Shown here piece after piece: positions 51,246 to 64,000 of a stretch of DNA of 64,000 nucleotides. The translations under genes and the position numbers were made by a program. Below the pieces are notes generated by a model. That model saw only the letters and a program-made list of their open reading frames with translations, was not told where the DNA came from and did no database searches. How positions within the stretch are numbered: the first letter of the stretch is position 1; the number at the start of each line of letters is the position of its first letter. Location of the stretch: assembly GCF_030347395.1 (NCBI RefSeq), contig NZ_CP128170.1, forward strand, positions 1,798,001-1,862,000. The letters run 5' to 3'. Origin of the DNA: Microbacterium sp. ET2 (GTDB lineage: Bacteria; Actinomycetota; Actinomycetes; Actinomycetales; Microbacteriaceae).

Positions 51246-52993
51246 TCACCAGCCGGGATAAGGCGGGGTCCGGTCGATACATAAGGGGAAAGCGGCAGGT
51301 GCCAGCCGCTCAAAGGCCGGCGCGAGAACGCGGCATGCCGTATAGCCCGCTTCACGTACCCGCGGGGTTGTGACGTCCACCACGATGACCCGCGCGTCCG
51401 CGTTAAGAAGAGCCGACAGCGGCTGCGCGCCGACTCCCTCGTCGGGCACTGAACCGTGCGGGATCGTCCTGCGCCTCACTCGGGCGACACTTGACGCGCT
51501 GAGCCCATACTGCACGTGACACATGGGATCAATGAGGCCCCGCGCATCAGCGAAAACAGTTTCGGCGTATCGACGGTGCCGGTCGAATGGCGCTAAGCCC
51601 GCGACCCCGCCGTTGCCGATACTTTCCGCGCTGCGGATCAGGCTGTCGGGTGAATCTAGATCACGCGCGGAAGCGTGTTGAATCAAAGCCTCGGCCACGG
51701 CTGTCAACGCAGCGTCTTGGGGCTCGGCTGCGGCGGCAAACCCCAGGGAGACGATGTCCTTCTCCCTGTCGTCGACGACGGCGAGACGTACCCGAACACC
51801 GGTGGACGTAGGGATGGCGAGAAGCCGTATGTCCAGCGTCGACTCTCGACCTTTGGTTGGCTGAACCGCGGCAGGCAGCCACATTCCGGCAGCGGGTTCG
51901 GCTTTCGCCACCATAGCGAGACGGCGTCGTGGGCGATGACGTGTGCAGCGGCGCGTTCCGCCGCAGCTTCGAGGTCGGTGCCGGCGCAGAGGCCGACGAG
52001 ATTGTGGCTGTTGGTCGACGGGAGGGGGTCCAGGCGACTAGCGAGATAGCCGGCGTGGACGAGGGAGATCGGGACCCAGCACGTCTCGCCACGCTCATCG
52101 CCAGCGAGCCACCAGTTCACGGCCCGATCATCGTCGCGGACGAAGGGAAACCCGGGCATCTCGTGCAGGGCGGGATCGTGGGGCCGCCACTCCGCGACGG
52201 TGAGCACCCGGTCTCCCGAGGCCCTCAGCTCTTCGGCGGTGGCGCGCCGCAGTCGCCCTTGCCCCAAGTAGGCGCCGCAGTAGTGCGCTATTCCCGAAAG
52301 CAATGCGACATGTTCGGGCGTGTCCGTGCCGCCGGAGAAGCCTGCCGCCGGCGCGAGGGCGTCGGGCTGGAAGCGCGAGTCGACGCTCCCAAGGTGTGGG
52401 AGTTCCGCGTGCAGGTGTTGGAATCCTGGCGGGTGCCACGGCTCGATGGGGCGCGCGACGATCCGTCGCAGCACACCGGTGACGGAATCGACGCTCGGCG
52501 CGGGTCTGAGTCGGTGTGGCACCCACGCGTCGCCTTCCCATCGTTCGAGCATGTCCGCGCCTGCGTCGCGGTCATCATCGAGACGCAGGTTGAGGGGGTC
52601 GGCGATAAGCGGGGGTTCCGTGAGCGCTGCGGCCACGGCGGGCTCCGCAACTCCTGCCCGCAACAGCTTCCCGATGAGATCCGCCGTGGCCGGGGCGTTC
52701 AGTGGGTCGAGCAGGATGCGGTGCAGTCGTCCCGCGTACCGCCACAGGACGATGATCTTCCCGTCGCACGTGCGCGCGAGATCATGCAGCGCGGCGGTCG
52801 AGTCGACCTCGATGTGGTGCTGGCCGACCGGGACCTCGACGTTAGGCCCGGAGGCTCGGATCTCGTCCAGGGCGGCGCGGACGGCATCGGAGTTGACAGC
52901 CACGGCGGGCGCGGTGAGGATCCAGCGGCGGCCGTCGTCTCCGCAGACGACGAGCTGGTCGCCTCCGAGCGCGTGAACCGTGACGCGAGTCAC
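51246..52993 (-). pseudogene. Degenerate YcaO-like protein, one frameshift
   Basis: About 582 residues after correcting one lost base at the AAA run (51903-51905, minus strand), following residue 363. It aligns throughout with the fused C-D protein encoded upstream but lacks its last 30 residues. The ATP-binding YcaO motifs are replaced: where the partner has GEAAERYCG this one has LLSGIAHYCG, and where the partner has EEIIERHA this one has AHVIAHDA, removing all four acidic ligands and both Arg. So even with an intact frame it should not bind Mg-ATP. A scaffold or substrate-presenting role is plausible. GTG start overlaps the partner's stop (GTGA). Confidence 0.75.
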
Positions 52994-55194
52994 GCGTGAG
53001 GGACGGGGAAGTAGTTGAGCTCGTGCTCAGCGAGTCGCTCCGCCCGCCACCCGAGTTCGACGGCGAGGTCCTGCACGCGCCCACGGCCGAGAAAGGGGAA
53101 TGCAGCGGGCGCGTTTCCCACAGTGCCCGGGACGATTGCTCGCACGACCGCCATACCGGTGCTGGCGATGTCGGGAGAGGTGATGTCGACGATGATGACT
53201 TCGTGGCCGGCGGCTTCGAGCGCACCTTGGTATGCGGCCGGAGTCCGTTCGCTGAGGCGCGGAAGGTCGGCCAGGCGGCGGGCGGCGGGACGTTCCAGCA
53301 GGGGCGCGACCCGCTCGACGGCACGGGGGTCGAGGTGGACCTGTTGCTGCACCATGAGGTCGTCGCAGTCGCGCATGTCTTCGCGGTATGAGTCGAGGTA
53401 GCGACGATCGGCACGCCACGGCTTGAATGACCGACTGTTGAGCTCGCCCCGGGCCATGGCATCCCAGTGAGCTCCGTCCGCGCGCAGAAGGTCACGGCTC
53501 CCCTCCTGAAGGGTGCAGGCCTCGGTCCAGGCCTTGAGGGCTGCGGCTTCGGGGGTGTCGCGACAGGCGAAGCCGACGTTGACGAGGGTGTCGACGTCGT
53601 TGTGGAGGACGCCTGCCATGACTGGCACACCGAACTCGTTGTCCAGGTGGATGAGCGAGGGTCGCTGGCCGGCGTCTGCGGGGATCCCGTTCCAGACGTC
53701 TGCGAGGTCGCCGGGGTCGACGGCGTCGAGCGGTTGCCCGTTGAGCCACCACACCATCGTCGCGTGACGCTCGATGATCTCCTCGAGTGCGGAGGTCACA
53801 GCGTAGTCGAGGTTCGGGCCGGCTGCGATCCCCGCGAATGGGCAGAAGGTCGTGACGGGCGCGCCGGCGTACCCGGCGGTGAACCAGTTGACGTAGACGG
53901 TGCTCGCCGGCACCAGCACGGTCTCGCCGGTCGTGAGCGATCGCCCCGGCACCCAGTGCTGCTCCAGGTCATGGGTCATCCGGACAAACGGGAAGCCGGG
54001 GGTGTCGTATTGCTTATCGGAGTAGAGCACGAGGTCGTCCGGATCGAGGACGCGGGTGGCGCCGCGGCGAAGAGAGTCGTAGCTGCCGACGGTGACGGGA
54101 AGGGTGTCGAGCAGGTTGCCGCAGTACCGCTCGGCCGCTTCGCCGATCGCGCTCGCGCGTGCTTGTTCCGGGTCGCCGAAGGCGGAGCCCTGGCAGGAGG
54201 TGTTGTTCGCCCAGCGTGAGACGCGGCGCATGTTGCAGACGTCGCTTTGGGCGGTGGCGAGAAGCGAGGGGATGCTCGGATGGTGCACGACGTCGCGGGT
54301 GCGTTGGACGAGACCGGTCACCCGGTCGACGAGGTCGGCGGGAGTGTGAGGGCGGGATTCGCTGAGGACGCTGGTGGGCAGCGGGAGAACCGGGTGCGTG
54401 GTGAGTGTGCCGTCCGCGGCGATTTCGGTGACGAGGTCACCGGTTCGGGTTCCGCCCAGGATGGCAGCTGCGGCGCGGATGCTGTGGCCGAGGTGATGGG
54501 GCGCGCGGCCGGCGTCTCCGCCTGCGGCGGGGGCGCGCAGCGCGCGGTGGGCGACGGCGTCGAAGGCGGCCGCGGTGCGTCGGGCGGCGAAGTCCTCGTA
54601 GTTCGCGCCGACACCCGGGGTGACGAACGGCCCGATCCACACGGTTGAGCGGGAGACCTCGACCGCTACCCAGGGTGTGCGGGCGTCGCTGCAGAGCCTG
54701 TCCAGCGCGATGAGGGTCGCGTCGTCGGCCCCGCGAACTGCGTAGACGAGCAGTTCCCGGGTGCGGAAGGCGCGGTGGACCACGCGCTGCCAGTCATCGG
54801 CCGGCACTGCTCGAACGACACGGTCACTGCCGTTCTGCAGGGCGGCGACGACCTCGGGGTCACCGGTGACGAGCAGGTCGCCGGGATCTGCGTCGGATCC
54901 GTCGCCTGTGTCGTAGTGGGGAGCGGTGACGGGCAGGGAGCCGGCCGGTTCAGGATCGGTGAAGGCGCCGTCGCGATCGAGCACGTCGAAGAGGACGGCT
55001 GCGCCGTCCTCCCAGCCCGCGGGCAGGAATGGGGAGGGAACACCCGTGGCCCAGGAATCCAGCATGCGCAGCATGGTGGGAGCGTCAACGTCCAGTGCAT
55101 AGGAGTTGTCGGCAGGAGTGGTGACGAGCACGCGACCACCGGGCAGGGCGCGGACTTCGGCGTGCACGGTGCGGGTGAGTGTGGGAGAGGACAT
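52990..55194 (-). CDS. Fused TOMM cyclodehydratase (C-D, YcaO domain)
   Basis: A 734-residue RiPP-modifying enzyme. Residues 1-80 resemble a leader-binding RRE (HAEVRALPGGRVLVTTPADN). About 105-215 is an E1-like C domain (LLVTGDPEVVAALQNG, then WIGPFVTPGVGANYEDFAAR). About 280-734 is a YcaO domain with both ATP motifs intact: GEAAERY at 351-357 and EEIIER at 471-476. YcaO enzymes phosphorylate backbone amides to make azolines, thioamides or amidines from Ser, Thr or Cys. The Cys pair that usually holds zinc in the C domain is absent (NYED). The C-terminus is FPVPHA, close to the proline-rich end of the family. Encoded 74 nt after the precursor. Confidence 0.85.
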   Translation of the reverse strand: MSSPTLTRTVHAEVRALPGGRVLVTTPADNSYALDVDAPTMLRMLDSWATGVPSPFLPAGWEDGAAVLFDVLDRDGAFTDPEPAGSLPVTAPHYDTGDGSDADPGDLLVTGDPEVVAALQNGSDRVVRAVPADDWQRVVHRAFRTRELLVYAVRGADDATLIALDRLCSDARTPWVAVEVSRSTVWIGPFVTPGVGANYEDFAARRTAAAFDAVAHRALRAPAAGGDAGRAPHHLGHSIRAAAAILGGTRTGDLVTEIAADGTLTTHPVLPLPTSVLSESRPHTPADLVDRVTGLVQRTRDVVHHPSIPSLLATAQSDVCNMRRVSRWANNTSCQGSAFGDPEQARASAIGEAAERYCGNLLDTLPVTVGSYDSLRRGATRVLDPDDLVLYSDKQYDTPGFPFVRMTHDLEQHWVPGRSLTTGETVLVPASTVYVNWFTAGYAGAPVTTFCPFAGIAAGPNLDYAVTSALEEIIERHATMVWWLNGQPLDAVDPGDLADVWNGIPADAGQRPSLIHLDNEFGVPVMAGVLHNDVDTLVNVGFACRDTPEAAALKAWTEACTLQEGSRDLLRADGAHWDAMARGELNSRSFKPWRADRRYLDSYREDMRDCDDLMVQQQVHLDPRAVERVAPLLERPAARRLADLPRLSERTPAAYQGALEAAGHEVIIVDITSPDIASTGMAVVRAIVPGTVGNAPAAFPFLGRGRVQDLAVELGWRAERLAEHELNYFPVPHA

Positions 55195-55230
55195 GTGGCT
55201 CCGATTCGGCGTGCCGGGTGGTGGTGGGTA

Positions 55231-55260
55231 GGGTGCCCCGCCGCGAGGGACGGGGCACCC
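55231..55260 (-). promoter_or_regulatory. Hairpin after the precursor gene (attenuator-like)
   Basis: GGGTGCCCCG (55231-55240) pairs perfectly with CGGGGCACCC (55251-55260) over a 10-nt loop. It lies 8 nt beyond the candidate precursor stop and before the cyclodehydratase start. Such hairpins after RiPP precursor genes let the peptide be made in excess of the enzymes. Confidence 0.6.
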
Positions 55261-55268
55261 GGCGGTCC

Positions 55269-55376
55269 TTAGGACCAGGCGAACGCGGTGGACACGTGTC
55301 CGTGGTTGTTCGCGTTGGGCGCGAGGATCTGGTCCTCGGAACGCTCCGTCGCAACCTGCGTGATGGTGATCTGCAT
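55269..55376 (-). CDS. Candidate RiPP precursor peptide
   Basis: A 35-residue peptide from ATG 55376, beginning MQITITQVATERSEDQILAP and ending with a core-like NNHGHVSTAFAWS. GGGGGTGA lies 5 nt upstream of the start, and the start is 5 nt after the stop of the transporter gene, so it is cotranscribed with the transporters and the YcaO enzymes. The acidic first half (ERSED) suits a leader. The second half offers Ser29, Thr30 and Ser35 for heterocyclisation and His25 and His27 for metal binding. There is no Cys. Cleavage site unknown; no protease gene is in the operon. Confidence 0.7.
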   Translation of the reverse strand: MQITITQVATERSEDQILAPNANNHGHVSTAFAWS

Positions 55377-55381
55377 ATTCG

Positions 55382-57157
55382 TCACCCCCTTCTTCCTTCT
55401 CGTGCGCCGACCCGGATGGTCGAGGCGTCGGGGTCTTCGAGGGCGAGCAGCGAGCGGTATCGCGGGTCGTCGGTGAGCGTGTCGTGGGTGCCGTCTGCGA
55501 TGACGCGGCCGTCTTCGATCAGCACGACGCGCGGCATCCGGCGGATGGTGGATACCCGGTGTGCGATGACGATGGTGGTCCGTCCGAATCGGACGCGGGC
55601 GAGGGTGTCGGCGAGGTCGCGTTCCAGGATGGTGTCGAGGTTGGCTGACGCCTCGTCGAGGATGAGCACGGCGGCATCGCGGAGCATCGCCTGCGCGATC
55701 GCCACTCGTTGCCGTTGCCCACCGGACAGTGCGGTGCCCCGTTCCCCGACAGGTTCGTCGAATCCCCGGGCGAATGTGGCGACGGTGTCGGCGAGGCCTG
55801 CTCGTTGCACGGCTTCTTCCAGCTGGGCGTCGGTGGCGTCGGGGTGGGCGAGCAGGAGGTTGTCGCGGAGGGACCCGCGGAAGATGAAGGGGTGTTGCGG
55901 GATGAGGGCAACTTCCCGGCGGGCGGTGTCGGGGGTGAGGGTGCGGAGCGGTCGTCCGTCGAGGAGGATGCTGCCGGAGGTCGGGTCCCACAGCCTGGTG
56001 AGCAGCCGGGCGATGGTGGACTTTCCCGCTCCCGAGGCGCCGACGAGCGCCAGGTGTTCGCCGGGTTGAATGTCGAGGTCGAGGCCGTCGAGCACGAGAT
56101 GTTCCGCGGTGTACCCGAACGTCACGTCGCGCAGTTGAACCGCCCCGGCGCCCAGGCCGGGACGGGTGTCGTCTCCTGGGAAGACCTCGTCGGGTTCGTC
56201 GAGGAGAGAGAGGATGCGGGTCGCTGCTGCGGACATCTCGCCGATGCGCTGCAGCATCGCAAAGGCCCCGGCGGCGGGGACGATCGACGCCGTCGCGAGC
56301 ACAGTCGCCGGCGGGATCAGGACCGGATCGATCGCTCCTGCCGCGGCCGCGCCGACGAGGATCAGGAGGAAGCTGAAGGTGGTGGCGGCCACCACGAGGT
56401 CGGCGAGACCGGCTTCGAGCGCGCTGCGGAGTGAGAAGCGCCGTTTCGCGGATTGCACGGCGCGGGTGTGTGCCAAGACCGTGTCGCGGTGCTGGCCGGC
56501 GAGATCGAGGGCGGCGATGTCTCGGCGGGACTCCATTCCCTCGAACGTGGTCGCGCGCAACGCGCCCAAACGTTCCCGGATGTCCGCGCCTTGCCGTGTC
56601 TGCGCTGGGGCGAGCAGCCACGGCACTGTTAGTAGCAGGGCGATCCCGACCGGGACGACCAGCCCCACGGGGCCGACGAGGATGACGAGCGCGATGCCGA
56701 ACGGAACGGGGGTGAGGAGGGCGTTCAGCGCGGCGCCGAGGGTGTGGGCGTAGAACCACTCCATTGCTTCGACATCGCCCATGGCGGTCCCGGTGACCTC
56801 CCCGGCGCGCCGGCGAGCGGATCGACCGGGCACGATGCGTTCGATCGCGTCGTACACCCGCAAACGGAGCGCGGCGATCACCCGGTAGGCGAGCACGTGA
56901 CTCAGCCAGGACTCGATCCACGTGAACGCGCCGCAGGTCACGATCGCGGCGGCGAGCCCGATCAGTAGGGCCGCCACAATCGCGTCGTCGCCTGCCGTGA
57001 CGACGGAAGCGATCGCGGCGCTGAGCCCAGCCGCGGCAGCGGCTGCCAGCTGATAGGCCGTCATCGACAGCGCTGATCGGATGAACAGTCGGCGATCGGC
57101 GGGAGCGAGCACCGTGAGAAGTCGGAGGACGGGTCGAAGCATCGCCATCGTGCTCAT
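55382..57157 (-). CDS. ABC half-transporter (TMD-NBD), second of a pair
   Basis: A 591-residue exporter-fold half-transporter: six helices in residues about 20-320, then an ATPase domain with Walker A GASGAGKST, signature ALSGGQRQRVAIAQAM and Walker B AVLILDEASANLD. It overlaps the other half-transporter by ATGA, so the two form a heterodimer. Pairs of this sort, like YbtPQ or IrtAB, import metallophores despite the exporter fold; others export peptides. Either direction fits: export of the modified peptide or import of its metal complex. The precursor gene follows 5 nt after its stop. Confidence 0.85.
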   Translation of the reverse strand: MSTMAMLRPVLRLLTVLAPADRRLFIRSALSMTAYQLAAAAAAGLSAAIASVVTAGDDAIVAALLIGLAAAIVTCGAFTWIESWLSHVLAYRVIAALRLRVYDAIERIVPGRSARRRAGEVTGTAMGDVEAMEWFYAHTLGAALNALLTPVPFGIALVILVGPVGLVVPVGIALLLTVPWLLAPAQTRQGADIRERLGALRATTFEGMESRRDIAALDLAGQHRDTVLAHTRAVQSAKRRFSLRSALEAGLADLVVAATTFSFLLILVGAAAAGAIDPVLIPPATVLATASIVPAAGAFAMLQRIGEMSAAATRILSLLDEPDEVFPGDDTRPGLGAGAVQLRDVTFGYTAEHLVLDGLDLDIQPGEHLALVGASGAGKSTIARLLTRLWDPTSGSILLDGRPLRTLTPDTARREVALIPQHPFIFRGSLRDNLLLAHPDATDAQLEEAVQRAGLADTVATFARGFDEPVGERGTALSGGQRQRVAIAQAMLRDAAVLILDEASANLDTILERDLADTLARVRFGRTTIVIAHRVSTIRRMPRVVLIEDGRVIADGTHDTLTDDPRYRSLLALEDPDASTIRVGAREGRRG

Positions 57158-58872
57158 GCCGTGACCTCGTCTCGCTGCGCAGCGTCCAGCTTCGCTAGTG
57201 CTCCGCCGGCGGCGACGAGTTCGTCGTAGCGGCCGTGTTCGAGGACCCGCCCCTCGCCCATGACGAACACCTCGTCGACGTCGCGGATGCTGCTGAGCCG
57301 GTGTGCGACGACCACTGTCGTCACAGGGGCGCCATCGCCGGTGTGTCGGGGAAGACCTGCCAGCAGTGCGCGTTCCCGACGTGTGTCCAGCGCGCTGGTC
57401 GCTTCGTCCAACAGCAGGATCGGAGCGTCGAGGAGCAACGCGCGCGCCACCGCGAGCCGCTGTCGTTGGCCGCCGGACAAGAGAGCGCCGGTATCGCCGA
57501 CCGGAGCATCCAGTCCACCTCGATCGATACTGGCCAGCTCGAGCGCCTGCGCCTTCTCGAGTGCCTCGAGAAGGCGGGCGTCATCGGCTTCCGGTGCGAT
57601 TACGGCGAGGTTGTCGCGCACGGTGCCTGAGAAGATGACCGGATCCTGGGAGACAAGCGCTATCGCCATCCCAGGGGCGGTTTTCTGGACGGCGACGCGA
57701 CCGGAGGTCGGCGTGAGGAAACCAAGCAGGATGTTCGCGATCGTCGACTTGCCGGATCCTGACGCTCCGACGATGGCGACGCGGTTGCCTTCCCGAATTC
57801 GGAGCGAGACATCGCTGAGCGCATCGGTATCGGCTCCGGGGTAGCGGGCGACGACATTCTCGAGCTCAACCGCATAGGGCGCCGCTGCGCCGGCACGAGA
57901 ATCCGGGTGGGCGGCCGCGGAGTCCTGCGCGCGATCGAGCTCGTTGAGGATGCGGCCACCGGCTGAGACCCCGAGATAGCCGGCGTGCCAGTGATTCGCG
58001 AGATCACGAAACGGCCGGTAGGCCTCGAAGGACAGCATCGTCACCAAGAAGAGAGCGGAGGCCGGAAGAGCCCCGGCGTTTACCCGAACGACCGCGACAC
58101 ACAGGACGATGGCAGGACCAGCGAGAAGCAGGAACCCGGTGAGCCCGGACTCGACGAGCGACAGTCGCAGCTGAGCGAGCGTCGCCGTCAGCAGGTTCTC
58201 GCCTGCTGCATGGAGCCGTCGCCGGGTTCGACGCGTCGCGCCGAGCAGTTTCAGCGTCTCCATCCCGCGCATCGCGTCGACAGTGTCTGCGTGCAGCCCG
58301 GAGTACGCCCCCCAGTGATCGTCGCCGCGACGCTGTAGCGCTGCGTCCCAGAGTCGCGGCACAGCTAGTACCGCGATGGCCGCGGCCGCCGCCACGAGCC
58401 CTACGACCGGGTCGATCACCGTGAGGAATGCGATCACGCATACGGCGGTGACGGCGGTGACGACAACTTGGGGGATGTAGCGGGCCACGTACGGCTCAAT
58501 GTTTTCGACCCCGTCGACCAGGAGCGAGTCGGCCTCACCCGCTCGCTGCACACCGGCCGTGATGGGACCGGCGGCTGCGGTTGCGTCCAGCATCTGGGCG
58601 CGTAGTTTCGTCTTCGCTCGCGACGCCGCAGCGTGGGCGGCAATCTCTCGACCCGCGGTGGCGAGGGGCCGAGCGAGAAGAGCGGCTGCCAGCACGATCA
58701 ACGGGACGACAAGGGTAGACAGCGATTCTCCGGTCACGATCCCGGCGAACACGCGCGCCGTCGACACGGCCTGCGTAATCGCGAGGGCGCTGAGCACCAG
58801 CCCCATCACGATTGTGGCGGCGACGGCAACGCGCGCTGGCGCGGCCAGTCGCAGAAGTCGGAGGTGAATCAC
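57154..58872 (-). CDS. ABC half-transporter (TMD-NBD), first of a pair
   Basis: A 572-residue half-transporter from the GTG at 58872 with AAGGA upstream. Six helices are followed by an ATPase domain: Walker A GASGSGKST, signature LLSGGQRQRLAVARAL, Walker B ILLLDEATSALD. The arrangement resembles CydD/IrtB-type proteins. It opens the leftward operon (transporter, transporter, precursor, C-D enzyme, YcaO paralogue). Its promoter region of 50 nt is shared with the FecCD permease gene and contains a Zur/Fur-like box, so both arms should respond to the same metal. Confidence 0.85.
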   Translation of the reverse strand: MIHLRLLRLAAPARVAVAATIVMGLVLSALAITQAVSTARVFAGIVTGESLSTLVVPLIVLAAALLARPLATAGREIAAHAAASRAKTKLRAQMLDATAAAGPITAGVQRAGEADSLLVDGVENIEPYVARYIPQVVVTAVTAVCVIAFLTVIDPVVGLVAAAAAIAVLAVPRLWDAALQRRGDDHWGAYSGLHADTVDAMRGMETLKLLGATRRTRRRLHAAGENLLTATLAQLRLSLVESGLTGFLLLAGPAIVLCVAVVRVNAGALPASALFLVTMLSFEAYRPFRDLANHWHAGYLGVSAGGRILNELDRAQDSAAAHPDSRAGAAAPYAVELENVVARYPGADTDALSDVSLRIREGNRVAIVGASGSGKSTIANILLGFLTPTSGRVAVQKTAPGMAIALVSQDPVIFSGTVRDNLAVIAPEADDARLLEALEKAQALELASIDRGGLDAPVGDTGALLSGGQRQRLAVARALLLDAPILLLDEATSALDTRRERALLAGLPRHTGDGAPVTTVVVAHRLSSIRDVDEVFVMGEGRVLEHGRYDELVAAGGALAKLDAAQRDEVTA

Positions 58873-58892
58873 GGAGTCCTTCGATGTGCAAA

Positions 58893-58907
58893 CGAGAATC
58901 GTTATCA
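58893..58907 (-). promoter_or_regulatory. Zur/Fur-like box in a divergent promoter
   Basis: Minus-strand TGATAACGATTCTCG resembles Fur-superfamily boxes of the TGAxAAxnATTnTCA kind, and its centre holds the dyad AACGA-GAA-TCGTT. It lies 20 nt from the transporter GTG and 15 nt from the permease GTG, so one bound repressor could cover both promoters. Confidence 0.55.
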
Positions 58908-58922
58908 ATAAGCTGTGTTCCT

Positions 58923-60020
58923 GTGTACACGACCAATGCGCCTCCGCGCCACTCCGACGCTCCATCCGGGGTGACATTGGGAGACGCGGCGCGGCGCGCC
59001 CGCCGGCGCGGCGGCGTCCTCCTTGTCGCACTCTGCTTGACACTCGTCGGGTCGGCGATCGTTGCAGTCGGGATCGGTCCCGTGGACGTATCTCCCGCTG
59101 TGGTAGCACGGGTGATCGGCGCTCAACTCGGCCTCCCCCTCGAAGCGACGTGGAGCTCCTCCGAGGAATCGATCGTGTGGCTGATTCGCGTTCCCCGGGT
59201 GCTATTGGGTGCGTTCGTCGGCGCTGTGCTCGCGATGACGGGCGCGGCCATCCAATCGCTCGTGCGCAATCCGCTCGCTGACCCTTACCTGCTGGGAATC
59301 TCATCCGGTGCCTCAACCGGAGCGGCGGCGAGCATCCTGTTCGGCATCGGTTCCGGCCTGGGCGCGATCGCCCTCACCGGTAGCGCGTTCGTCGGAGCGC
59401 TGCTCGCGATCGTGCTCGTCATGACGATCGCGAGAATCGGTGGCCGCTTCGTTCCGTCTCGGTTGATCTTTGCCGGAATCGCCGTTGGCTTTGCTTTGAC
59501 GGCGTTGACGAACTTCCTCGTCTTCGCAAGCGAGTCGCGGGACGGTACGCGCGCGGTGCTCTTCTGGATGCTCGGATCCCTCGGTCAAGCCCGATGGCCC
59601 TCCGTGCCGGTCGGGCTCATCGCCGTTGTCGTCGCGCTCGTCGCCTTCACCCTGTGGGCGCACCGGTTCGATGCGATCGCCATCAGTGACGACACCGCTC
59701 TGGCGCTGGGAACCAACCCCACGCGCTTCCGAGCCGCCGCGGTGATCGTCGTGTGTCTGGTCATCGCGGCCGCCGTGTCTGTGTCCGGCCTCATCGGCTT
59801 CGTGGGTCTCGTTGTGCCGCACATCGTAAGACGCCTCGTCGGCGGGCGGCACAGCATCGTGATCCCGACCTCCGCCGTCCTCGGGGCACTCCTACTCGTC
59901 TGGGCCGACGCCGCAGCTCGCGTCGCTTTCGCGCCACGCGAACTGCCGTTGGGGATCCTTACCGCACTCATCGGGACCCCGCTCCTCATCGCCCTCATCC
60001 GGCGCTCAGCAGAGCGCTGA
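58923..60020 (+). CDS. FecCD-type metallophore ABC permease
   Basis: A 365-residue permease with about ten helices of the BtuC/FecCD family. Recognised segments are VWLIRVPRVLLGAFVGAVLA, GAAIQSLVRNPLADPYLLG, ISSGASTGAA and the C-terminal SGLIGFVGLVVPHIVRRLVG and GILTALIGTPLLIALI. Such permeases carry Fe-siderophores, heme, cobalamin or other chelates. I chose the GTG at 58923 because a TAAGCT -10-like box lies 8 nt upstream, giving a leaderless mRNA; a GTG at 58971 is an alternative. The lipoprotein and ATPase genes follow as one operon. Confidence 0.85.
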   Translation: MYTTNAPPRHSDAPSGVTLGDAARRARRRGGVLLVALCLTLVGSAIVAVGIGPVDVSPAVVARVIGAQLGLPLEATWSSSEESIVWLIRVPRVLLGAFVGAVLAMTGAAIQSLVRNPLADPYLLGISSGASTGAAASILFGIGSGLGAIALTGSAFVGALLAIVLVMTIARIGGRFVPSRLIFAGIAVGFALTALTNFLVFASESRDGTRAVLFWMLGSLGQARWPSVPVGLIAVVVALVAFTLWAHRFDAIAISDDTALALGTNPTRFRAAAVIVVCLVIAAAVSVSGLIGFVGLVVPHIVRRLVGGRHSIVIPTSAVLGALLLVWADAAARVAFAPRELPLGILTALIGTPLLIALIRRSAER

Positions 60021-60076
60021 TTCCTTCGCCCGTCCTTCCTCGCAAGTACCTGCCACCACCCGAAAGAGAGAAACTC

Positions 60077-61069
60077 ATGATCAAGAACCACCTCCGGCGC
60101 CGCTCTGGTGCCGCCCTCGTCGCGGTAGGGGCGCTCGTCGCCCTGACGGCATGCTCCACGGCAACGGCTGAGGCCGAGGCCGAAGGCGCGTACCCGCTCA
60201 CAATCGAGAACTGCGGTGCCGACTTGGAGATCGCGTCCGAACCCGCTTCGGTTCTGACGATCGGGACCTCGGCCATCGCCCTCCTGGACACTGCCGGCGC
60301 CTCGGACCGGATCACCGCCCGGAGCGGCGAATTCGGCGCCGACCTTCCCGAAGGTCTCGACAACCCGCCAACCGACGCGACCATCGTCGATCCCTCCGAC
60401 CCCACCGCCGAGTCCATCATCGGAGCAGAACCCGACATCATCGTCGGCTACGGACTCTTCAATGCCGCCCCGGAAGACATCGCCGCAGCAGGCATCCCTG
60501 AGATCGTGATCGACGGAGAGTGCAGCCACGACGCCGCACTCACGGAGAAGACCGACTTCGACGCGATTTTCGCCGACGTGAGCCGGCTTGCCACCGTGTT
60601 CGGCACCGAGGCTGCCGCCGACGCCAACCTCGAGGAGCTTCGCGCAGAGCTCGACGACCTGACCGCCGCCGCGTCCACGGAAACTGAGCGCGGGACCGCG
60701 GCCGTCGTCTACTACTTCTCCGAATCGTCCACGCTTTCTGCCCGCGGCGGGCAGGGCATCGCCGACGACGTCTTGGACCGCGCCGGCTTCGACAACGTCT
60801 ACGGCGACGAGCCGTCCGTCTACCTCGAGGTGAACGTGGAGACGCTCCTCGACGCCGACCCCGACACCATCGTGCTCGCCTACGGCCTCTACGGGGAAAG
60901 CTACGAGGACGCGAAGGCTCACCTGCTCTCCGAGCCCGGCGTCACCGATCTTGAAGCCGTCAAGGCCGACCGCATCGTAGGAGTACTCGCGTCCGACCTC
61001 TCGCCCGACCCCGGAGCGCTCCGCGGACTGCGTGCCGTGCTCGAGGGCACCGGGCGCCTCTCGCAGTGA
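60077..61069 (+). CDS. Metallophore-binding lipoprotein (periplasmic-type SBP)
   Basis: A 330-residue solute-binding lipoprotein of the FepB/BtuF/PeriBP fold. The signal peptide (residues 1-25) ends in a lipobox LTAC with Cys26 as the lipid anchor. The mature part begins with an acidic Ala-Glu linker. Two lobes follow (around VLTIGTSAIALLDTAGASD and VLDRAGFDNVYGDEPSVYLE). AAAGAGAGAAA precedes the ATG. It captures the chelate outside the cell for the FecCD permease and the ATPase encoded next. The ligand cannot be told from sequence; few His are present, against a free-zinc binding protein of ZnuA type. Confidence 0.85.
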   Translation: MIKNHLRRRSGAALVAVGALVALTACSTATAEAEAEGAYPLTIENCGADLEIASEPASVLTIGTSAIALLDTAGASDRITARSGEFGADLPEGLDNPPTDATIVDPSDPTAESIIGAEPDIIVGYGLFNAAPEDIAAAGIPEIVIDGECSHDAALTEKTDFDAIFADVSRLATVFGTEAAADANLEELRAELDDLTAAASTETERGTAAVVYYFSESSTLSARGGQGIADDVLDRAGFDNVYGDEPSVYLEVNVETLLDADPDTIVLAYGLYGESYEDAKAHLLSEPGVTDLEAVKADRIVGVLASDLSPDPGALRGLRAVLEGTGRLSQ

Positions 61070-61845
61070 TCGACGTCGACGGCTTGGTCGTGCGCTACGG
61101 CCAAGCCGTCGCCGTCGACGATGTAAGTGTTGACCTCCCCACCGGCAGGACGGTCGGGCTGATCGGTCCGAATGGCTCAGGGAAGTCATCCATCGTCCGA
61201 GCCATCTTCGGAGCCATCGATCGGATGCGCGGAACGGTCGTCGTCGACGGCGATGCCCTCGACACGCTCTCCGCACGGGATCGCGCCGAACGGATCGCCG
61301 TCGTGGCCCAGGAAGAACGAACGGGTCTTCCCCTCACGGCGTGGGACTCAGTGATCCTCGGACGTTCCATTCGCATCTCCGGATGGAGCCGCTACCGGCC
61401 CGAAGACGAGGCCGCCGCCGAAGACGCGATGCAACGCGCCGGTGTCGACCACCTCGCCCAGAGGTCGGTCGACACGCTCTCCGGGGGTGAACGCCAGCGT
61501 GTCCTGATCGCCCGAGCCATCACCCAAGGAGCAAGCCACCTGCTCCTCGACGAGCCCACGAACCATCTCGACATCCGCTACCAGCACGAGATCCTCGCAC
61601 TCGTGCGCAGCCTGCCGCTCACCACGCTCGTCGTGCTGCACGACCTGAACCTCGCTGCCCGATACTGCGACGAACTCGTCCTCCTCGACAATGGTCGCGT
61701 GGTCGCCATCGGATCACCGGATGAGATCCTGCAACCCGACCTCATCGCTTCCACGTATGGCATCGGCGCCCGTCGCGCCGACACCGAGGGCGTACCTCAG
61801 CTCACCTTCTTCCCTCTGCCTGACACCGCTCACGTGGGTCGCTGA
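61066..61845 (+). CDS. FepC/BtuD-type ABC ATPase
   Basis: A 259-residue ATPase of metallophore uptake systems. Walker A is GPNGSGKSS at residues about 34-42, the signature LSGGERQRVLIARAI, Walker B HLLLDEPTNHLDI, followed by the switch His in TLVVLHDLNLAARYCDE. Start GTG 61066 overlaps the lipoprotein stop (GTGA). It completes the permease, lipoprotein, ATPase uptake set. Confidence 0.92.
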   Translation: MIDVDGLVVRYGQAVAVDDVSVDLPTGRTVGLIGPNGSGKSSIVRAIFGAIDRMRGTVVVDGDALDTLSARDRAERIAVVAQEERTGLPLTAWDSVILGRSIRISGWSRYRPEDEAAAEDAMQRAGVDHLAQRSVDTLSGGERQRVLIARAITQGASHLLLDEPTNHLDIRYQHEILALVRSLPLTTLVVLHDLNLAARYCDELVLLDNGRVVAIGSPDEILQPDLIASTYGIGARRADTEGVPQLTFFPLPDTAHVGR

Positions 61846-62541: not shown

Positions 62542-62596
62542 AGGACCATCACAACACTCACATAATCGAATGGCAATACGTTTATGCAATTGGGAA

Positions 62597-62608
62597 TGAT
62601 GATCATCA
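62597..62608. promoter_or_regulatory. Palindrome between two divergent ArsR genes
   Basis: TGATGATCATCA, a perfect 12-bp dyad between the ArsR starts at 62541 (minus) and 62658 (plus). Candidate operator for one or both repressors. Confidence 0.45.

Positions 62609-63019: not shown

Positions 63020-63023
<4 letters not shown>
62658..63023 (+). CDS. ArsR/SmtB-family metalloregulator of the CDF exporter
   Basis: A 121-residue repressor (ATG 62658; a TTG at 62652 is also in frame). The winged helix is SVNSIAEAVDKSPAGVSQHL. A Cys (QECGY) lies near the N-terminus, and the C-terminal tail has HHHHAD, both likely metal ligands. Its stop overlaps the CDF gene start (ATGA), so it almost certainly represses that exporter until metal accumulates. 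Confidence 0.9.

Positions 63024-64000
<977 letters not shown>

Follow-up and report, generated by a model that had tools for sequence, protein, structure and literature searches.

To our knowledge, the bacterial zincophores recognised so far are of the opine type or non-ribosomal. Here we describe a locus in a 64-kb stretch of the genome of Microbacterium sp. ET2 (the window; positions 1798001-1862000 of a 3.6-Mb single-contig genome) that probably forms a module for a ribosomal metallophore, more precisely a zincophore, controlled by the regulator Zur. The closest described system is that of streptamidine (ami), a ribosomally synthesised and post-translationally modified peptide (RiPP) for which Russell et al. 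2021 noted fecBCDE genes and suspected metal import (PMC8442711). Family precursors of streptamidine in print number 237 (PMC8442711).

The window locus resembles that of streptamidine in joining a YcaO enzyme to a TruD-like leader-binding partner (AmiB in streptamidine), in having two ABC transporters and FecBCDE-type importer genes, with one permease gene in the window rather than two, and in a short precursor lacking a Ser/Thr/Cys-rich core; both are wide in Actinobacteria (PMC8442711). It differs in that the window cyclodehydratase is a single 734-residue fusion, whereas the streptamidine study took standalone YcaO proteins only, and in that the window precursor has an HGH core and no ALV where streptamidine has HLSATH and an ALV follower (PMC8442711). 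Further differences from the published cluster are a degenerate second YcaO and the lack of a hydrolase or dehydrogenase among the eight window genes. The FecBCDE-type genes and the two ABC transporters that mark the streptamidine group (network 1) are present in the window; the ALV motif and the standalone YcaO are not.

Two exporter-fold ABC half-transporters (ABC1 and ABC2), a 35-residue peptide, the fused cyclodehydratase (CD) and a second YcaO protein (YcaO2) lie on the minus strand, and a FecCD permease, a substrate-binding lipoprotein and an ATPase on the plus strand. A first-pass annotation of this DNA had proposed the same gene content and strands within the outer coordinates 51246-61845, all of which the reading frames and family profiles of the window bear out; its divergent promoter of 50 nt was too short, however, the likely GTG starts lying 95 nt apart (58873-58967). 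The gene set, the conserved precursor core, the co-inheritance as one module and the promoter box common to zinc-uptake genes were established by computation, and from them we infer every biochemical step of a zincophore mechanism, Zn(II) chelation included.

Conservation of the module and of its precursor

Scanned with CD, GTDB genomes yielded 18 loci, three of which (L012, L020 and L021) are cut by contig ends and were excluded from the synteny comparison. In all 15 informative loci the order is identical, with uptake ATPase, lipoprotein and permease running divergently from ABC2, ABC1, precursor, CD and YcaO2. These loci come from 13 genera in 9 families (Brachybacterium, Salinibacterium, Glycomyces, Isoptericola, Oerskovia, Aeromicrobium, Mobilicoccus, Cellulosimicrobium, Actinomyces, Sediminivirga, Pseudoclavibacter as a metagenome-assembled genome, and Cellulomonas and Microbacterium with two loci each), and the precursors of this close family have 35-43 residues. 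The first-pass annotation had suggested looking for syntenic loci with a conserved core beside the same ABC pair, and this is the arrangement found in all 15. At E 1e-210 or better the close family occurs in 4 of 295 same-genus genomes, host included, and at E 1e-40 in 14 of 295. On one contig of Mobilicoccus massiliensis (L012 and L013) the cyclodehydratase/YcaO2 region is present twice, one copy reaching the contig end, perhaps through duplication or as an assembly repeat.

By maximum likelihood, the CD tree, the exporter-pair tree and the tree of the three uptake proteins all place the window with Brachybacterium and Isoptericola with strong support; Salinibacterium joins this group in the CD tree and adjoins it in the other two. 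In all three trees the window stands apart from two other Microbacterium, again with strong support, and the disagreements between trees are confined to small places (L006, L009/L013, L015/L017 and the long row L019). The trees are largely congruent with each other and discordant with taxonomy. Compared with other Microbacterium, the window proteins reach 96% with Microbacterium sp. RD1 and 78% with M. aquimaris and M. xanthum, so that the genus carries two distant versions of the module. The host Zur, encoded by the Fur-family gene at genome positions 2038523-2038933, is by comparison 79% identical to that of L082, a Microbacterium with the distant version, and 48% to that of Brachybacterium (L079). 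Because the trees are largely congruent and taxon-discordant while the host Zur is closest to Microbacterium, biosynthesis, export and uptake appear to move together. Export and re-uptake systems co-inherited with biosynthesis, a mark of the zincophore class, are found here for a presumed transported substrate. At the more distant locus L127, where YcaO2 was not detected, the uptake genes stand within the biosynthetic operon in another order, and the association of RiPP and uptake genes thus survives rearrangement.

A chance neighbourhood of two unrelated operons was rejected on the 15/15 synteny and the largely congruent trees. FecCD operons are common in Actinobacteria, and two remote loci considered below (L124 and L130) have no permease, as might be expected if an ordinary siderophore uptake operon lay beside an unrelated RiPP cluster. 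With the same neighbour in every close locus, trees that largely agree, an association kept after the rearrangement at L127 and a Zur box in common, we find this explanation hardly credible.

The 35-residue peptide with His25, His27, Ser29 and Thr30 that had been read from the window is encoded there, and was compared across 17 precursors (the 15 informative relatives, the window and L121). The core pattern N[AS][NH][NH]H[GA]H....F.W recurs in every informative relative. In 624,612 six-frame residues from the 15 relatives the motif LAPN...H.H occurs 15 times, and each relative has one precursor, placed between the exporter gene and the cyclodehydratase. Mean pairwise identity is 72% in the 15-residue core and 50% in the leader; averaged over 136 pairs, the proportions of nonsynonymous (pN) and synonymous (pS) differences are 0.155 and 0.425 in core codons, versus 0.340 and 0.406 in the leader. 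The core is under purifying selection and more strongly constrained than the leader. Core residues N1, H5, H7, F12 and W14, and hence both histidines of the HxH motif, are unchanged in all 17 precursors. Thr10 of the core (Thr30 of the precursor) is kept in 16 of 17 and Ser29 is variable, with no core Ser, Thr or Cys invariant across the set.

For the window precursor, the computed [M+H]+ is 1612.7251 for the candidate NANNHGHVSTAFAWS (1594.7145 minus H2O) and 1709.7779 for PNANNHGHVSTAFAWS (1691.7673 minus H2O); the shorter candidates PNANNHGH (860.3758; 842.3652 minus H2O) and NANNHGH (763.3230; 745.3125) assume removal of a follower as in streptamidine. Directly 3' of the precursor stop codon, a hairpin folds in 17/17 loci despite differing sequences, with z scores against shuffles from -1.4 (the window's own, which is weak) to -7.1. 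It is a possible, even likely, partial terminator that would fix the ratio of precursor to enzyme.

The promoter box and the regulating metal

A Fur-superfamily-like box had been noticed in the common promoter; it is there (Table 1), and it agrees with the consensus tGaNNatSatNNtCa derived from chromatin immunoprecipitation of Zur in Streptomyces coelicolor (PMC5472717). With up to 2 mismatches allowed, the box has 12 strand matches at 9 places of the host genome, against 0 for the reversed control. The two best places besides the RiPP promoter belong to one zinc locus, a row of genes for ZnuA, an ABC ATPase, an ABC permease and a Fur-family protein, flanked by another ABC permease gene (minus strand) and an ATPase gene (plus strand). 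For ZnuA and the Fur-family protein the names were confirmed by Pfam; those of the ABC genes of this locus come from reading.

Matches were found in the genomes of 14/14 relatives, L011 having been excluded from this search, and the reversed control gave fewer, 0 to 8 per genome among the matches listed. Among the places inspected, the box lies at znuA-C-B-zur in L082 and at znuA-like genes in L071, L067, L086 and L055; at divergent genes for a CobW-type GTPase and L28 in L081, L066 and L068; at genes for a CobW-type GTPase and the zinc chaperone AztD in L088, with AztD also in L080; at CobW-type genes in L083 and L059; at L32 in L074; and at several places of a Brachybacterium island (L079). 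Some matches, for example in L061, L075, L084 and L087, have no zinc gene nearby. Eleven of the neighbouring proteins, 2 of them in the host, matched as named by Pfam or NCBIfam, some below equivalog cut-offs; at L055, L059, L067, L068, L071, L079 and L082 the names were assigned by similarity to host proteins or by reading. Genes for Znu, COG0523 GTPases and L28/L32 paralogues are known actinobacterial Zur targets (PMC5472717, PMC2823685).

A weight matrix built from 19 boxes at non-RiPP genes scores the window promoter box at 24.7 bits, the highest site in the window, and gives at least 14.9 bits to 15 of 16 RiPP promoters, where the 99% quantile of the background (3,161 windows) is 6.9. The independent part of this evidence is the zinc identity of the genes beside the boxes. 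The RiPP promoter shares its box with zinc-uptake genes of the same genome, as a member of a Zur regulon would. Since the box is Zur-type, the metal is narrowed to zinc, which by these sequences is most likely the regulating one. The proposal of metal regulation and of a link between the RiPP and the uptake operon thus receives strong support within the close family, from the Zur box and from the 15/15 synteny.

The top curated matches of the uptake proteins are F420-0, corrinoid and iron-chelate importers, every one below cut-off. FecCD importers are, by the names of these matches, mostly iron or cobalamin systems, and His-rich peptides have a high affinity for Cu(II) and Ni(II). The product could on these grounds be a metallophore for another metal (e.g. 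Cu, Ni, Co or Fe) deployed as zinc falls, or a mixed-metal chelator; we regard this as distinctly unlikely given that the zinc-type box is common to znu, zur and L28 genes. On its zinc-gene partners, an assignment of the box to iron and DtxR was rejected, DtxR-type sites not having been scanned.

In the zincophore module that we favour, Zur would leave the common box when zinc is short, as the nature of the box suggests, and both operons would be expressed. The N-terminal half of CD would bind the short precursor, and the His-rich core would be modified through ATP-dependent backbone cyclisation, giving an azoline at Thr30 or an amidine as in streptamidine, with the degenerate YcaO2 as a putative non-catalytic partner. 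A heterodimer of ABC1 and ABC2 may export the peptide, which would bind Zn(II) through its conserved His residues and the cyclised backbone. The lipoprotein would then capture the Zn-peptide complex, and the FecCD permease and the ATPase would import it.

Some further boxes were observed in the window and elsewhere. The second-best Zur-type site of the window (62591-62605, 16.7 bits) precedes a His/Asp-rich cation-efflux (CDF) gene (63020-64000) by about 415 bp; as Zur activates the zinc exporter gene zitB in S. coelicolor (PMC5472717), this gene could be an export arm. A third palindromic box, 7 kb past the window (L046:10983-10997, genome position 1868982; 23.3 bits), has the gene of a small membrane protein on one side and a frame that is amidohydrolase-like by eye on the other, and is a possible further Zur target. 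On the Brachybacterium tyrofermentans contig (L078, L079 and L004), the surroundings of the RiPP cluster contain at least 6 Zur-type boxes within about 37 kb, together with a gene resembling zur, frames of the CobW type and another FecCD importer, and the region looks like a zinc-starvation island.

The cyclodehydratase and its degenerate partner

CD matches TIGR03604 above cut-off (E 2.6e-74), and its N-terminal half matches TIGR03882 at 22.8 bits, below the cut-off of 36.9. Matches to TruD, LynD and MusD range from E 1e-19 to 7e-12 by sequence and from 8e-38 to 3e-35 by family profile, and together with the two TIGR families they uphold the earlier identification of a fused C-D cyclodehydratase. 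Its ATP motifs GE[AS]xERY and [LI]EE[IV][IV]ERH are intact and its C-terminus reads FPxPH[AS]. The locus has what defines a YcaO cyclodehydratase cluster of the thiazole/oxazole-modified microcin (TOMM) or linear azol(in)e-containing peptide (LAP) type: C and D proteins, acidic ATP motifs, a proline-containing C-terminus and a short precursor beside the enzyme.

YcaO2 is a paralogue of CD (profile comparison: probability 100, E 8e-50, 24% identity). The second YcaO protein of the first-pass annotation therefore holds by homology, but neither as a single open frame in the window nor with an intact ATP site. The glutamates of both CD ATP motifs, which we take to be ATP/Mg ligands of YcaO proteins and which are visible in the alignments of TruD, LynD and MusD with CD, are lost in YcaO2, at the second motif in 17/17 rows and at the first in 16/16 readable rows, window included (L015 is unreadable there). 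The YcaO2 C-terminus is PGW in 34/34 aligned sequences, where CD has FPxPH. Without the ATP-site glutamates, YcaO2 was rejected as a second active heterocyclase. In wider two-YcaO clusters, both ExxER motifs of the second YcaO are complete in 8 of 11 cases and one residue off in the other 3 (Ala replaces Arg in the first motif of L124_2, and Gln the first Glu of the second motif in L129_2 and L139_2), and a degenerate second YcaO was rejected as a general trait of such clusters. Judged by these residues, a degenerate partner separates the window family from them, and YcaO2 makes a case for asking what role an ATP-less YcaO plays.

In the window YcaO2 is split over two overlapping frames (Table 1), with the break at about 51849-51880, whereas it stands in one frame in 16/16 relatives read, Isoptericola sp. 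AK164 and Brachybacterium tyrofermentans being examples of such relatives, and in the 581-residue proteins P0134 and P0135. Either a real lesion or a sequencing error could account for the break. In Microbacterium sp. RD1 (P0141), the closest named relative, YcaO2 reads through the position of the break and is annotated short N-terminally, perhaps from a mis-called start or a second lesion in the same lineage. Taken with the patchy spread of the family in its genus, the frame break could mean that the pathway is inactive in this strain, a decaying or borrowed system in which uptake perhaps serves the product of others. This is a serious but doubtful possibility: the remaining genes of the block are open and conserved, YcaO2 is in one frame in relatives, and a protein without ATP-site residues is affected by a break that may itself be a sequencing error. 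Such a loss in one strain is compatible with a zincophore in the family.

Table 1. Features of the locus, in window positions
Feature	Position	Strand	Remarks
Zur-type box CGAGAATCGTTATCA, 7-1-7 inverted repeat	58893..58907	no strand	within the common divergent promoter
ABC2, exporter-fold half-transporter (membrane and ATPase domains, CydD-like), probable GTG start	57154..58872	-	found in 15/15 informative relatives
ABC1, partner exporter-fold half-transporter (CydC/MsbA-like)	55382..57157	-	found in 15/15 informative relatives
RiPP precursor, 35 residues, MQITITQVATERSEDQILAPNANNHGHVSTAFAWS	55269..55376	-	compared across 17 orthologues
GC-rich hairpin directly 3' of the precursor stop codon	55231..55260	-	folding against shuffles
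CD, fused E1-like/leader-binding and YcaO cyclodehydratase, C-terminal ...FPVPHA	52990..55194	-	family profiles, homologues
YcaO2, N-terminal frame, degenerate ATP site	51704..52993	-	frame broken in the window genome
YcaO2, C-terminal frame, closing with the family signature PYPGW	51246..51914	-	relatives with one-frame copies
FecCD-family permease, probable GTG start	58968..60020	+	
Substrate-binding lipoprotein (Peripla_BP_2; lipobox-like ...LVALTAC)	60077..61069	+	
Uptake ATPase	61066..61845	+	

Wider YcaO loci and known systems

At E 1e-60, CD relatives are present in 20 of 394 class-level and 9 of 398 family-level genomes (host in both). The wider set comprised 40 loci, half of them for CD relatives and half for relatives of one streptamidine-type YcaO; L122, L123 and L120 repeat L018, L005 and L020 and did not enter the counts as new loci. 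Of the 40, 37 contain a match to a FecCD-type permease, with L120 cut by a contig end. The precursor classes of these loci include APHNHAVTAASFHWS, VLAAPQDPTTHALVQNPFAW, tandem VLSAPQGPGTNALVHNPFAF, HLSA[TS]HSNALVENPFD and HSSNHAT. In L169, L171, L172, L176 and L178, HLSATH is the streptamidine core letter for letter (PMC8442711). Two tandem cores are seen in the precursors of L169, L171, L174 and L175 (ALV type: L135, L137 and L138). Against a profile of the window class, L127, L124 and L130 match with no shuffle above them, the APHNHA peptides (L125, L126 and L128) and L129/L139 match weakly, and the HLSATH, tandem ALV and HSSNHAT classes do not rise above shuffles.

Boxes upstream of the precursor were sought in 36 wider loci, in 31 of which a script found the precursor (L131 and L182-L185 dropped out at this step, though L182 and L185 show one otherwise). 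A Zur-type box of at least 13 bits lies within 300 bp upstream in 21 of 31, and at 16 bits in 19 of 31, against 1.0% of 3,710 background windows; among the other 10, some have a box at a different operon start (in L126 and L128, before ABC2) and others no convincing one. These upstream boxes sit mostly at streptamidine-type loci, and of the 14 loci in L168-L181 whose precursors are of the ALV type, 11 have one 85-111 bp before the precursor start. The word Zur does not occur in the main text of the streptamidine paper (PMC8442711).

Several findings weigh against a zincophore, and the main ones are the negative data on streptamidine. The peptide bound no tested metal, Zn included, by chrome azurol S (CAS) assay or liquid chromatography-mass spectrometry, the mutant had no starvation phenotype, and deletion of fecBCDE abolished production (PMC8442711), a requirement that a pure re-uptake role does not predict. 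The metal result could reflect zinc present in the medium, the use of a hexapeptide that is no more than a piece of the active form, or a role other than chelation. Next in weight are the remote loci L124 and L130, whose CD relatives are about 40% identical and whose precursors are of the LAPNGNH type; neither a FecCD permease within the locus nor a convincing Zur-type box was found in them. A LAPN-type precursor with a YcaO is therefore not always accompanied by uptake, and these two are perhaps a branch with another job. The first-pass annotation had held that YcaO genes with a different peptide and no uptake operon would refute its proposal; none of the 15 close loci is of this kind, but L124 and L130 literally are. 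Within the close family, the L019 core has no Thr10, L015 has a poor promoter box (5.8 bits), and the RiPP promoters of L004 and L016 are outscored elsewhere in their own loci. The matrix is also circular in part: the pattern used to pick out its training boxes came from RiPP promoters. Finally, no peptidase-like gene is among the eight genes of the block, whose flanks were not searched for one, so that the block offers no candidate for leader removal.

That streptamidine bound no tested metal would also suit a RiPP which is induced by zinc starvation and is no chelator, but a signal or growth inhibitor, with the FecCD set serving as sensor or for re-uptake, or for self-protection. Peptides with dedicated importers can indeed be signals. 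We think such a role unlikely, the conserved His-rich core being unlike the fast-diversifying bacteriocins and the uptake proteins best matching, below cut-off, the cofactor and chelate importers named above. Streptamidine, moreover, showed no antibacterial or antifungal activity (PMC8442711).

A zincophore at this locus, if true, would be a new bacterial route of zinc scavenging, and sequence alone could suffice to find and test a zincophore that is ribosomal and gene-encoded. We suggest tentatively, with somewhat less than even confidence, that the window family and the streptamidine-type family form one large Zur-controlled group of secreted, FecCD-reimported zinc-fetching YcaO peptides in Actinobacteria, the first recognised ribosomal branch of zincophores, in which the window branch has a pair of one active and one degenerate YcaO. 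For the unexplained FecBCDE genes of the widespread streptamidine family, the Zur box offers a direct and testable reason, and the regulatory link makes the function of the whole YcaO/FecCD group testable.

Among other known systems, the cyanobactin heterocyclases TruD, LynD and MusD are homologous to CD over the YcaO domain and a short E1-like part, and their substrates and biology differ from those of the window system. The mobilisin group of predicted TOMMs (Cox et al. 2015, PMC4603692) has, as in the window, a fused actinobacterial cyclodehydratase and a nearby short peptide poor in Cys, Ser and Thr, and is possibly related to the window family. Mobilisins are described with B (dehydrogenase), C and D proteins, whereas the eight window genes include no B; the description, by which they are compared here, gives no uptake operon, metal link or peptide sequence (PMC4603692). 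Coelibactin of Streptomyces, whose zincophore genes are repressed by zinc-bound Zur, is a precedent for a Zur-controlled small-molecule zincophore (PMC5472717) but is putatively non-ribosomal (PMC3430247), unlike the window peptide. Bufferins are ribosomal metal-binding peptides, as is proposed for the window peptide, but MNIO enzymes produce them, and their described role is to chelate excess copper rather than to import zinc (PMC12452194). The system of PMC13174530 was rejected as that of the window, being of the YcaO-TfuA/MNIO type. No title or abstract joining YcaO peptides with Zur was found in a search of open-access literature, subscription papers being outside it. Measured against these systems, a YcaO peptide cluster with FecCD genes is of a kind already known; the His-rich core class was not found described, and the enzyme pair and the regulatory link are new.

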